Assembly (NCBI GenBank): GCA_030636285.1
Contig: DAOVXE010000060.1
Location: forward strand, 1-5,255
Source: Candidatus Falkowiibacteriota bacterium
Lineage (GTDB): Bacteria; Patescibacteria; ABY1; BM507; UBA12075
Length of the DNA stretch: 5,255 nt
Direction: 5' to 3'
Each line of letters opens with the position of its first letter. Within the stretch, counting starts at the first letter, position 1. Below the pieces are notes generated by a model. That model had not been told where the DNA came from. It ran no database searches and saw only the letters and a list, made by a program, of their open reading frames with translations. The translations under genes and the position numbers were made by a program. Shown here one piece after another: positions 1,196 to 4,921 of the stretch.

Positions 1196-1834
1196 ATGGC
1201 AAATATTATTCCTTTGGAAAAAATTGAAAGTAAGATATTATTAGTCCGCGGGCAGAAAGTTATGCTGGACAGGGATTTGGCCGTTCTTTATGGAGTTGAA
1301 ACAAAAAGGTTGAATGAGCAAGTAAAGAGAAATATTAAAAGGTTTCCAGAAGATTTTATGTTTCAGCTTATAAAAATGGAAGCTGAATTTTTAGAAAAAG
1401 AGGGAATATTTAACGATTCTTTAGGGTCGCAAATTGTGACCTTAAAGAATAAAAGCAGTAAAGATTTGCCAAACTTGAAATCACAATTTGTGACTTCAAG
1501 AGGAAAAGATGACGAATATTCGCAAAACTTGAAGTCGCAAATTGCGACCTCAAGTTGGGGCGGCCGCCGTAAACTGCCGTATGTATTTACGGAGCAAGGT
1601 GTGGCTATGCTTTCCAGTGTGTTACGCAGTAAAAAAGCCATAGAAGTTAACATTACAATAATGCGGATGTTTGTTAAAATTAGACGAATGTCACAATCAT
1701 ATAAAGATTTAGCCAGAAAAATAGCAGAAATAGAGAAAAAGTACAATAAAAAAATAATAAAGATTTTTAAAGTATTGGACTATTTAACTGAAGAACATAA
1801 AAATAGCAATAAAAAAGAAATTGGATTTAAATAA
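1196..1834 (+). CDS. ORF6N domain-containing DNA-binding protein (antirepressor-like)
   Basis: This 212-residue protein matches the ORF6N family, a DNA-binding domain known from phage antirepressors and widespread in bacterial chromosomes. The N-terminal part (about 7-60) carries the typical KILLVRGQKVMLDRDLAVLYGVETKRLN-like segment, followed by VKRNIKRFPEDFMFQL. The second conserved block is WGGRRKLPYVFTEQGVAML (121-139), with VNITIMRMFVKIR at 151-163. The C-terminus (166-205) is Lys/Glu-rich and probably a coiled coil for oligomerisation. Between the two conserved blocks, the SQ-(I/F)-(V/A)-T motif occurs three times with an 18-residue period (67-84, 85-102, 103-120); relatives as I recall them usually carry one copy, so this linker looks expanded. 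There is no strong ribosome site, only GAAG at 1185-1188. The gene sits 18 nt after the surface-protein gene and directly abuts the next gene. Its likely role is transcriptional regulation; the target is unknown. It looks out of place among secretion genes and may be an insertion. Confidence 0.9.
   Translation: MANIIPLEKIESKILLVRGQKVMLDRDLAVLYGVETKRLNEQVKRNIKRFPEDFMFQLIKMEAEFLEKEGIFNDSLGSQIVTLKNKSSKDLPNLKSQFVTSRGKDDEYSQNLKSQIATSSWGGRRKLPYVFTEQGVAMLSSVLRSKKAIEVNITIMRMFVKIRRMSQSYKDLARKIAEIEKKYNKKIIKIFKVLDYLTEEHKNSNKKEIGFK
1416..1450 (+). repeat. Palindrome 1 in ORF6N gene (35 bp, centre 1433)
   Basis: The left arm ATTCTTTAGGGTCGCAA (1416-1432) pairs with the right arm TTGTGACCTTAAAGAAT (1434-1450) around a single central A. 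Fifteen of 17 positions are complementary, and the two exceptions (G1424/T1442 and G1429/T1437) would be G-U wobbles in plus-strand RNA. It encodes the first SQIVT motif. The outer arm sequence differs from palindromes 2 and 3 but is still self-complementary. Confidence 0.85.
1474..1500 (+). repeat. Palindrome 2 in ORF6N gene (27 bp, centre 1487)
   Basis: The left arm CTTGAAATCACAA (1474-1486) pairs with TTGTGACTTCAAG (1488-1500) around a central T. Twelve of 13 positions are complementary; the exception is A1480/C1494. It encodes LKSQFVTSR. The central base is T where the other two copies have A, which produces Phe instead of Ile. The centre lies exactly 54 bp from those of palindromes 1 and 3. 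Confidence 0.85.
1526..1556 (+). repeat. Palindrome 3 in ORF6N gene (31 bp, centre 1541)
   Basis: The left arm AACTTGAAGTCGCAA (1526-1540) pairs with TTGCGACCTCAAGTT (1542-1556) around a central A. Fourteen of 15 positions are complementary; the exception is A1533/C1549. It encodes NLKSQIATSS. Read in reverse complement in the same phase, this segment would encode NLRSQFATSS, almost the same peptide. Confidence 0.85.
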
Positions 1835-2380: not shown

Positions 2381-4921
2381 ATGGAAGGATTATTAAATTT
2401 TGTAGGGATTGGCATAGAAGGAGTAGTTGTTACTGTTGTCGGCTGGATAGTGTCATTGGTAATATGGGTAGTAGGGGCGTTTATAAGCGCGGTTATTAAT
2501 GTTATTATTGCCATTGCCCAATATAATAATTTTATAAATGAAACTCCGATTATTGAGGCCTGGGTGATAGTGCGCGACTTCTGTAACATGTTTTTTATTT
2601 TAGTGTTGCTTTTGATCGCTTTTGCCAGCATTCTTCAATATGAGAATTACAGCATTAAACGCTTGTTGCCTAAGTTGATTCTGATGGCGGTTTTGATTAA
2701 TTTTTCCCGCATGATCTGCGGCATAATAATTGATGCCGGGCAAATTGTAATGCTTACTTTTGTCAGCGCTTTCGCGGATGGAGGCGGAAACTTTATGGGA
2801 GCTTTGAATGTTGATAAATATTTAACTATGGTTGAGGGCGATAAATGGGATAAGGATATTAATGTCCTCTCTACTGTTGGGTCTTTGATAATTGGCGTTG
2901 TTTTTTTAATGATTGCGGCTGTTGTAATGGTAGTGCTGTTGGCTGTGTTAATGATTCGCATAGTTATGCTTTGGATATATATTGTTTTATCTCCTTTGGC
3001 TTTTCTTTTGTCAGCTTTTCCCGGCGGACAAAAATATGCCAGCCAATGGTGGCGGGATTTTACCACTCAGGTCGTGGCCGGGCCGCTTTTGGCATTTTTT
3101 ATCTGGCTGTCCTTGATATCAGCCAATCAAATTTCGCATTTGGGCGGCGCGGACGCGGCTTCGGCAAAATGTTTTGGCCCCGGCCAGATTCTCTGCCCTA
3201 ATGAGTTTATCAATTTTTTAATCGCTATCGGCATGCTGGTCGGCGGCTTGATCGCCACTTCCAAGCTGGGCGGAGCAATCGGAGCCGCGGCCGGAAAAGG
3301 AATAACCAGGATTAATCAGGGCAAGGCTTTGGCTTGGAGCGGAACAAAGCTCGGCGCTTTTAAGGTTGGCAGGTCATTGGATAAATGGCAAACAGAAAAG
3401 CAAAGTAAGTATATTGGTAAAATAATTCCTGACTATAAGCCAAAGTCGCTTAATTACCGGGCGATTGCCCAGGGTTGGCGTTTGAAAAAGGCAAAAGACA
3501 TGCAAATATATGATCAGCAGGTGGGTAGATCTGATGTATGGGCGGACAATTTTAATAAACATTTAAGTTTTGCGCAAATTGGAGCAATTAGAAAAAATAA
3601 AAAAAGGATTACTGAAGACGAAACAGAGGCCACGCAAATTGATAAAGAATCAAAGCTAATTCAAAGAAGAAAGAATTATGCGGGATGGGACGAAGATCGC
3701 CAGGTAAAGGCGTTAGAAAAATATAGAACAAACAAAACAAAAATTACAGGTCAATATTTTAACAATGCTAATCAAAATTTAGAAGAGGATGAAAAACAGA
3801 AATGGGCAGAAAAACAGTATGACGACGATATTAATGCTTTAACATTTGGTAAACAATATAATACTAAAGAATTGGATGATAAAATAAAAACAAACGAAAA
3901 AGAGGTTGCCAGGCTTACGGATCATACGCTAATCGGGCTTCATGGCGATAAATATAAACCATATGATTTTCCGTTTAGCAAGGGCGGAATGGAAGAAGCC
4001 GTTGATAAGCAAGAATCAGAAACGAACAGGAGTACGCGAGGCCAGGATTTTGCCGTGATAAATGAGTGGTTAACCGCGTATCAGGAAAAAGATGAAACAA
4101 AAATGTCAGCTACTTTACGAATTCTAGCCAAAAATAATGACCTTAATGAATTAGCCAAAGATCCGCGTGTAATACGATTGATGACCAAACAAAACGGTCT
4201 TTTAGAAAAACTGAATAAAGATGTGTTTAAGCTTGATTCTGGCCAACTTGAAAAGCTTAAACAGGGCGTCCGGGCCAACCCGGTTACACCGGCCCATATC
4301 CAGGCCCTGGTTCAGGGAGCGTTTAAATCAATCAATGTTGATGATTCTAAGGCGGCCCGCCACGCTAATTTAATTGGCGGCAATTCCATAGCCGCTGGCA
4401 ATGGATTGGGTTATGCGATGTCCTATGGTGATGCGGCTACTGGTAATTTTGAGTTTTCAAAATATAAATTTGAAGAAAAAGACGAAGATGCACTTTTAGA
4501 AACTACGGATAGTAGAAATGCCGCTGTAACCGGGAAAATGGCAAATATTGAGCCGCAGATGAAAATGCGCAATTTTCATCCTAACAATTTTTTTGCCGAA
4601 GGATCAGACGGCGAGCTTACTTATGTGCATGATATGGGAAAAGAAAATTTAAAGTCTTTTACTTATCAGGATCTTGAACATATAAGCCGTATACGAAGTG
4701 ACAATATTACAAAGATAAAAAGCAGTCCCCATGTTATTGAAGAGATTGTTAAAATAGCAAAAGAGGTTCAAGATGCCGGCGACATACAGCAGGCAAAAAT
4801 TATTAAAAAGGTTGCCGGACACTTAAAAGCCAAAATAGAGGGAGGCGGAGAAATAAAAAGTTCGGAAGCGGCTGAAAAAGCTATTAAGGATCTGGCCGCT
4901 AAATATAAGTTAGAAGATTAA
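2381..4921 (+). CDS. VirB6/TrbL-like type IV secretion membrane protein with long C-terminal extension
   Basis: This 846-residue protein has two parts. Residues 1-305 are polytopic, with hydrophobic stretches at about 12-46, 60-85, 96-130, 165-210 (probably two helices), 229-248 and 276-304, giving roughly seven or eight membrane segments. Motifs such as VRDFCNMFFILVLLLIAFA, YSIKRLLPKLI and INFSRMICGIIIDAGQ are typical, as I recall, of Patescibacteria proteins assigned to the TrbL/VirB6 family, the polytopic inner-membrane channel component of type IV secretion systems. Residues 306-846 are hydrophilic, Lys/Glu/Asp-rich and mostly helical or coiled-coil in appearance, apart from a Gly/Asn/Ala-rich patch at 661-690. 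Canonical VirB6 proteins are about 300 residues, so the tail is a large extension whose function is unknown. The ATG at 2381 precedes the first hydrophobic segment and has no Shine-Dalgarno sequence; the gap from the upstream gene is 21 nt. The family call is fairly secure; the substrate (DNA, protein or pilus) cannot be judged. Confidence 0.82.
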   Translation: MEGLLNFVGIGIEGVVVTVVGWIVSLVIWVVGAFISAVINVIIAIAQYNNFINETPIIEAWVIVRDFCNMFFILVLLLIAFASILQYENYSIKRLLPKLILMAVLINFSRMICGIIIDAGQIVMLTFVSAFADGGGNFMGALNVDKYLTMVEGDKWDKDINVLSTVGSLIIGVVFLMIAAVVMVVLLAVLMIRIVMLWIYIVLSPLAFLLSAFPGGQKYASQWWRDFTTQVVAGPLLAFFIWLSLISANQISHLGGADAASAKCFGPGQILCPNEFINFLIAIGMLVGGLIATSKLGGAIGAAAGKGITRINQGKALAWSGTKLGAFKVGRSLDKWQTEKQSKYIGKIIPDYKPKSLNYRAIAQGWRLKKAKDMQIYDQQVGRSDVWADNFNKHLSFAQIGAIRKNKKRITEDETEATQIDKESKLIQRRKNYAGWDEDRQVKALEKYRTNKTKITGQYFNNANQNLEEDEKQKWAEKQYDDDINALTFGKQYNTKELDDKIKTNEKEVARLTDHTLIGLHGDKYKPYDFPFSKGGMEEAVDKQESETNRSTRGQDFAVINEWLTAYQEKDETKMSATLRILAKNNDLNELAKDPRVIRLMTKQNGLLEKLNKDVFKLDSGQLEKLKQGVRANPVTPAHIQALVQGAFKSINVDDSKAARHANLIGGNSIAAGNGLGYAMSYGDAATGNFEFSKYKFEEKDEDALLETTDSRNAAVTGKMANIEPQMKMRNFHPNNFFAEGSDGELTYVHDMGKENLKSFTYQDLEHISRIRSDNITKIKSSPHVIEEIVKIAKEVQDAGDIQQAKIIKKVAGHLKAKIEGGGEIKSSEAAEKAIKDLAAKYKLED

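Follow-up and report, generated by a model that had tools for sequence, protein, structure and literature searches.

Palindromes kept within ORF6N, Bro-N and RhuM genes of many bacterial phyla point to a signal carried by folded DNA

Why should a protein-coding gene hold three long palindromes at a constant distance from one another? The question is raised by a 5,255-nucleotide contig of a Candidatus Falkowiibacteriota bacterium (GenBank assembly GCA_030636285.1, contig DAOVXE010000060.1), analysed at full length and called the window here. Its forward-strand ORF at 1196..1834 encodes 212 amino acids and matches the Pfam family ORF6N (PF10543, E=1.2e-34, 118.9 bits against a curated cut-off of 27.8). 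Palindrome 1 (1416..1450, centre 1433) spans 35 bp with two mismatched pairs, palindrome 2 (1474..1500, centre 1487) 27 bp with one and palindrome 3 (1526..1556, centre 1541) 31 bp with one; both mismatches of the first, read off the sequence, are G-T and those of the other two A-C. None is assigned to a strand. The spacing is 54 bp throughout and all three lie in frame within the ORF, so that the lengths, centres, mismatches and placement given in a preliminary description of this DNA are borne out. In a ranking of palindromes across the window they come first, with scores of 12, 11 and 10, the runner-up reaching 7. Folded as single-stranded DNA, the first (27-base element 1420-1446, encoding SLGSQIVTLK) yields -5.9 kcal/mol (z=-5.0), the second (encoding NLKSQFVTS) -6.7 (z=-3.7) and the third (27-base element 1528-1554, encoding NLKSQIATSS) -8.6 (z=-5.8). 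The forward-strand segment that holds all three (1415..1558, codons 74-121) runs between the conserved halves of the ORF6N domain and is modelled by AF2 as a low-confidence loop (pLDDT of 63, 48, 50, 48 and 59 in blocks of ten from residue 71, against a mean of 81.6 for the protein), which suggests that it is probably disordered.

The simplest explanation, a repeated peptide that happens to be encoded by symmetrical DNA, can be examined by redrawing synonymous codons according to the gene's own usage while leaving the peptide unchanged. Scored over arm positions d=2-13, the three palindromes pair at 10, 11 and 11 of 12 positions, whereas the shuffles average 5.2, 5.3 and 4.6 (P=0.0041, 0.00093 and 0.00017, respectively), and the joint sum was reached by none of 100,000 draws. 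Coding thus does not account for the palindromes, as the preliminary description had argued. Homologues lead to the same conclusion. Scanning genome contigs with the window returned at least 593 stretches, of which 578 are relatives; among the best 80, which come from many phyla and were used here, genes carry the same type of palindrome, mostly around the motif SQ(I/F)(V/A)T. Elsewhere the DNA is read in other frames (EVVTNCDHLK in locus L028, EDVVANCDHIK in L046) or encodes other peptides (RFQFGTS, RCHFGTS and SHFATS). Rather than keeping the peptide motif and losing the palindrome, the pattern that the preliminary description had set against its own reading, homologues tend to change the peptide, and even the frame, while the palindrome stays. 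Codon shuffles and frame changes together rule out the repeated peptide as the whole explanation.

The association with ORF6N genes is general. Among full-length ORF6N ORFs, sampled across many phyla, 153 of the 167 carry one palindrome or more centred on CA-NNN-TG in the stretch that links the conserved domain halves; this is a lower bound in that the 14 ORFs without a site include domains clipped early by the regular expression (L164 and L243 do have sites). By source, palindromes were present in 79/81 ORF6N genes of the window-guided set and 12/16 viral ones, and, in family searches made without the window, in 16/18, 1/1 and 25/28 genes from the phyla of genomes G010, G003 and G005, which we take to be Bacteroidota, Patescibacteria and Omnitrophota, respectively. 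With the choice of centre left equally free in real and codon-shuffled genes, 165 of 173 ORF6N genes are significant at p<=0.05, as opposed to only 4 of 131 of the 3'-parts of such genes used as a control; likewise, 294 CA-NNN-TG-centred sites in or near ORF6N genes compare with 3 in shuffled contexts. When 11 or more of 13 positions are required to pair, the density of palindromes is 1.91 per kb inside 213 distinct ORF6N ORFs. It drops to 0.58 and 0.49 per kb over the adjoining 600 bp up- and downstream, respectively (overlapping neighbour genes being counted twice in these flanks), and to 0.138 per kb at distances beyond 1.2 kb. In L048 (3637-3930), six palindromes 51-53 bp apart occupy the interval that separates the ORF6N gene from the following ORF of annotated length; the arms of the first pair perfectly over 17 positions, and the geometry is CRISPR-like with diverged repeats.

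The sites have in common a stem of some 12 bp whose arms enclose a 3-base centre and whose pairing fades over positions 13-15; it is defined by complementarity and a few fixed letters. In 71 ORF6N flank sites, which lie outside the ORF6N reading frame, the paired fraction runs from 0.70 to 0.97 over d4-d13, values inflated by the preselection of covariation and wobble sites for at least 7 of 10 pairs at d4-13, and falls to 0.28 at d14; d1 is paired in 0.70 without covariation, and d2 and d3 were set by the search. The codon shuffles, d1, d14 and beyond, and a separate arm test are unaffected by this preselection. In the arm test, for which sites in 175 ORF6N, 40 RhuM and 11 Bro-N genes were picked on d2-11 only, pairing is 0.98, 0.97 and 1.0, respectively, at d12, 0.83, 0.60 and 0.55 at d13, 0.51, 0.17 and 0.64 at d14, and 0.21, 0.20 and 0.0 at d16. 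In-frame genic sites extend slightly further, with pairing of 0.50 and 0.61 at d14-15 against an expected 0.35 and 0.40. Fixed bases in ORF6N comprise CA/TG beside the centre, by site selection, and T/A at +-6; positions +-4, +-5, +-8 and +-10 to +-13 change together. When each locus contributes a single site, the covariation of variable pairs exceeds all 1000 permutations in both 157 genic and 44 flank sites, near-invariant d6 being matched by 100/1000 (genic) and 1/1000 (flank), and in slid registers it averages -0.007 and -0.011. That the arms stay complementary while both the DNA letters and the encoded protein change points to a signal in folded DNA. Distances between adjacent sites showed nominal helical phasing at 10.5 bp (R=0.258 against a 95% control value of 0.227), which was set aside because other periods score nearly alike and some distances were counted twice.

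The element extends to two further families. Two exact ORF6N cores from the phylum of G003 lie inside genes that read as Bro-N (L156 and L163), the former scoring 25.1 bits, just under the Pfam cut-off of 25.6. Among 26 Omnitrophota Bro-N loci, 22 have a recognised Bro-N ORF and 21 of these contain a palindrome at a lenient threshold, over peptides as unrelated as SKGWGQIATPL, GSQTVTNCNRLK, EIQLSTICRQLK and AEGYVQFVHTLE. In Omnitrophota and Bacteroidota, 33 of 49 RhuM ORFs with a length of 200 aa or more bear one (for example CAGTTATCCGGAAATTCCGGATAACTG), in a set that includes overlapping loci (L312/L299 and L313/L298). Best pairing over d2-13 reaches at least 10/12 in 42/50 RhuM and 21/32 Bro-N ORFs, and codon shuffles with a free centre give p<=0.05 in 34/50 RhuM and 21/28 Bro-N genes; for Pseudomonadota Bro-N the count is 9/30, a poor estimate in which the ORF at the locus centre is plainly wrong for several loci. 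The suggestion of an independent Patescibacteria case is therefore too narrow, given that ORF6N genes of many phyla and most of the Bro-N and RhuM genes sampled carry the palindrome, and an element confined to Patescibacteria is ruled out. Comparison of the ORF6N and Bro-N profiles found nothing, and no alignment joins the families; from our reading of the domain layout, the palindrome would nevertheless occupy a comparable place in all three. Three KilA-N loci showed no palindrome at the domain (the one in L316 sits in an ORF6N-like ORF), and E. coli K-12 dinD has none in the gene and no site within the surrounding 16 kb. Bro-N stems are often mispaired at d6 and d9 (0.52 and 0.57, respectively, n=21). 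In one Bro-N group (KGWGQ(I/F)(A/V)TPL, L268-L293), mismatches recur at d6 and d9 in an otherwise paired stem and could represent extrahelical bases. Among individual loci, L314 has four palindromes crowded into the stretch (2468-2577) that separates a RhuM gene from an ORF6N gene, and in L302 (1021-2049) a palindrome-bearing N-terminal part of RhuM is fused to a Fic domain.

Genome-wide scans, made in relatives and for the exact ORF6N core only, locate it mainly at these genes. Ten genomes selected because they have ORF6N yielded 22 exact cores, 21 of them inside an ORF6N ORF or no more than 330 bp from one. Twenty more genomes selected in this way yielded 34, of which 28 are in or beside such an ORF; of the remaining six, one falls in a weak ORF6N fragment, one is 7 bp away from a Bro-N ORF, one is separated from an ORF6N ORF by 1.3 kb and three are elsewhere. 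Across 192 genomes of the phylum of G003, drawn irrespective of ORF6N except G003 itself, 16 cores were found: eight in or within 71 bp of ORF6N, two in Bro-N and six others, whose outer arms are mostly weak. Of 116 genomes of that phylum drawn irrespective of ORF6N, seven have an ORF6N gene and six of the seven an exact core. The comparison with dispersed RPE elements made in the preliminary description is thus unsupported in these genomes. Like RPEs, the palindromes are in frame inside protein genes; RPEs are about 150 bp long and spread over unrelated genes (PMC10969869), whereas the present element is about 27 bp long, occupies one place in three families and is rare elsewhere as an exact core in the genomes scanned. 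REPs are DNA palindromes of 20-40 bp, some of them intragenic, that adjoin a gene for a protein with a possible action upon them (PMC3733652). This REP/RAYT arrangement resembles ours in palindrome size, in the intragenic copies and in the adjoining gene that may act on them, and differs in its genome-wide repetition and its conserved tag: at positions 14-25 from the centre, outside the arms of the 71 flank sites, information content is at most 0.26 bit, and a REP-like element with a conserved unpaired tag at the hairpin foot was rejected.

Is the pairing selected in DNA or in RNA? An mRNA hairpin controlling translation, processing or decay would suit the covarying pairs, the location of most sites in genes and the stability as RNA of the five elements folded. 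A selected mRNA hairpin should, however, tolerate G.U and not A.C, and over all sets G.U and A.C number 80 and 96. By set the ratios are 35:60 for ORF6N in frame, 42:31 for ORF6N elsewhere, 1:4 for RhuM and 2:1 for Bro-N; since codon usage favours A.C within the frame (AAA encoding lysine), the flank sites are of importance here, and taken alone they lean slightly to G.U, at 28:21. A search of Rfam at gathering level, in a library of described families only, gave no match to the hairpin in five sources. The mRNA option, which the preliminary description had left on the table, is disfavoured by the wobble counts, and we regard it as improbable. The lack of a clear wobble preference leaves DNA that is either selected or self-templated. 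Self-templating would mean that an imperfect palindrome, arisen by chance in a tolerant loop, is perfected time and again by template switching without serving any function, which would agree with symmetry at the DNA level, a low-confidence loop and a variable sequence. It sits badly with the limited arm length, the fixed bases, the prevalence in full-length ORF6N ORFs, the recurrence in three families and the non-coding copies near the genes, and appears to us very improbable.

If DNA is what is selected, it could be read by sequence or by shape. Models of the encoded proteins suggest winged-helix-like DNA binders, weakly so for ORF6N (RhuM was not among the models), and a PDB sequence search gave chance-level hits only. 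An ordinary dimeric operator, at which such a protein would bind its own gene as duplex DNA while site and specificity coevolve, would explain the symmetric sites, their limited length and symmetric conserved bases, the DNA-binding-like folds and the sites near gene starts. Yet, once near-identical pairs are dropped, two sites from one locus agree at their variable bases no more often than two taken from separate loci, so that a sequence-specific operator fits poorly: the bases at -5/-4 are shared by 67 of 228 within-locus pairs (0.294) as against 0.304 between loci, and at the other positions tried the two differ by at most 0.07. Single genes can also hold differing cores (L010, L197 and L259), and positions that are not conserved are still paired. 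The earlier proposal of an autoregulatory array loses ground in this sequence-specific form, which we hold to be rather improbable; a DNA site for the encoded protein that is read by its structure fits best. Integron attC sites and the ends of IS200/IS605 elements are structure-read DNA hairpins of this kind, in which pairing is kept and most of the sequence varies around a few fixed bases. The ORF6N-type element likewise keeps pairing and a few fixed bases; it lies within coding sequence, and we know of no recombinase for it.

We therefore tentatively favour, at somewhat less than even chances, the view that the palindromes are cis-acting DNA hairpins read by structure and bound by the encoded protein, each gene thereby containing the ligand of its own product. 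The data show a conserved, pairing-defined DNA element associated in cis, with an excess over codon shuffles, a comparable place in differing frames and peptides, covariation, limited arms and no G.U preference. Under the favoured scheme, ORF6N, Bro-N and RhuM genes would each carry an element of near-constant size (about 12-13 pairs per side and a 3-base centre) in one permissive coding segment, ORF6N genes often with additional copies directly before the start or after the stop, and the feature kept would be arm pairing together with a small set of invariant letters, which in ORF6N are the CA...TG bordering the centre and T/A at +-6. The element would act as DNA, read by shape as a single-strand hairpin or extruded cruciform and partly by sequence, and its reader would be the encoded winged-helix-like protein, whose binding may curb the expression or the copying of its own gene. 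Extra copies, such as the three at 54 bp in the window and the six at 51-53 bp in L048, may raise local occupancy.

The hairpins could instead serve mobility, the genes being single-gene mobile units that leave long target duplications and the palindromes single-strand handles for their own or a host inserting enzyme. Direct repeats 15 bp or longer bracket 33 of 192 ORF6N contexts (27 loci), 9 of 44 RhuM and 6 of 25 Bro-N contexts as against 1 of 82 control stretches, with counts inflated by neighbouring paralogues and by genes counted twice (L028, L255, L285, L299 and others); at loci with a single ORF6N ORF the figure is 16 of 140. Of 379 genomes from the phylum of G003, 277 encode relatives of the window's 846-aa protein, and of the 20 relatives whose surroundings were examined, 19 lack ORF6N in the stretch covered; the exception, L001 of G003, has an ORF6N gene with three palindromes at an identical 54-bp spacing and with diverged sequences. 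The genes flanking ORF6N in the window (2381-4921 and 2-1177) have no Pfam match. Several matches per genome in Omnitrophota, and a strand annealing like that described for DdrC, also agree with movement. Against it, no common insert ends are apparent by eye, a REP-like tag is missing outside the arms, neighbouring paralogues take part in many of the repeats, silent differences between some copies look as though they arrived with a donor allele, the element lies mid-gene, and the window gene has no flanking direct repeat. We consider a mobility signal unlikely. Restriction-modification genes insert with long target duplication, and the resemblance lies in single genes between long variable direct repeats; to our knowledge, they carry no intragenic palindrome.

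Should both the structure-read ligand and the mobility signal be true, a selfish one-gene element would follow: ORF6N, Bro-N and RhuM would each encode a DdrC-like protein that reads its own single-stranded hairpin by shape and inserts the gene elsewhere by annealing, long direct repeats being left behind; the hairpin would predate the divergence of the families and have stayed in one place while the surrounding codons changed. This is a long shot, and DdrC of Deinococcus radiodurans differs in that it is reported to lack both sequence and shape specificity. Two sets of loci may be recorded beside it. Direct repeats around ORF6N or RhuM genes in L031, L053 and L348 read as gene pieces, which we take to be parts of hsdM (type I modification subunit), presumably reflecting insertion into restriction loci with duplication. 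In two related genomes of the phylum of G003, each with an ORF6N copy (L192:1320-2060 and L195:1220-1960), one copy lies between perfect 42-bp direct repeats and the other ends, as judged by eye, in a tRNA-Gly-like 3' end.

Beyond its mechanism, the element places a concealed non-coding DNA signal within three families of protein genes, across many bacterial phyla and some viral contigs, in which a DNA structure outlasts the encoded protein sequence; standard annotation overlooks it because each gene resembles a normal ORF. If the protein reads the hairpin, poorly understood phage- and restriction-associated genes would gain a testable biochemical activity; if the hairpin drives insertion, it would help to explain the spread of single genes with long direct repeats. 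A full-text literature search, whose coverage leaves out most subscription journals and preprints, found no account of palindromes in ORF6N, Bro-N or RhuM genes, and in the accessible text of papers naming a family together with "palindrom" the word occurs only in the name of CRISPR. ORF6N and Bro-N are among ten Pfam families listed in PMC10111431, with RhuM outside the list and no palindrome mentioned in the portion available. The present combination is a pairing-defined DNA hairpin, one place in several gene families and restriction to its own gene. We know of no described kind of element that unites these three features.

Related palindromes also occur beside other genes. In L251, a palindrome at 1541 with 13 paired bases per arm lies about 66 bp upstream of an ORF that, as we take it, resembles DUF1016/YhcG and is a possible fourth family. 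Viral contigs contain the extended ORF6N core in 33 stretches, many of them near-identical, compared with one for a control palindrome, and no ORF6N was found in the surrounding DNA examined. At least 10 of the 33 viral cores (for example L119:5646, L122:3126 and L134:2277) lie in the gap before a gene, three being read directly and the rest by DNA similarity; that gene looks to us like a gp32-type single-stranded DNA-binding protein, followed presumably by a RecA/UvsX-like gene. A few other viral cores are followed by T runs and appear terminator-like.
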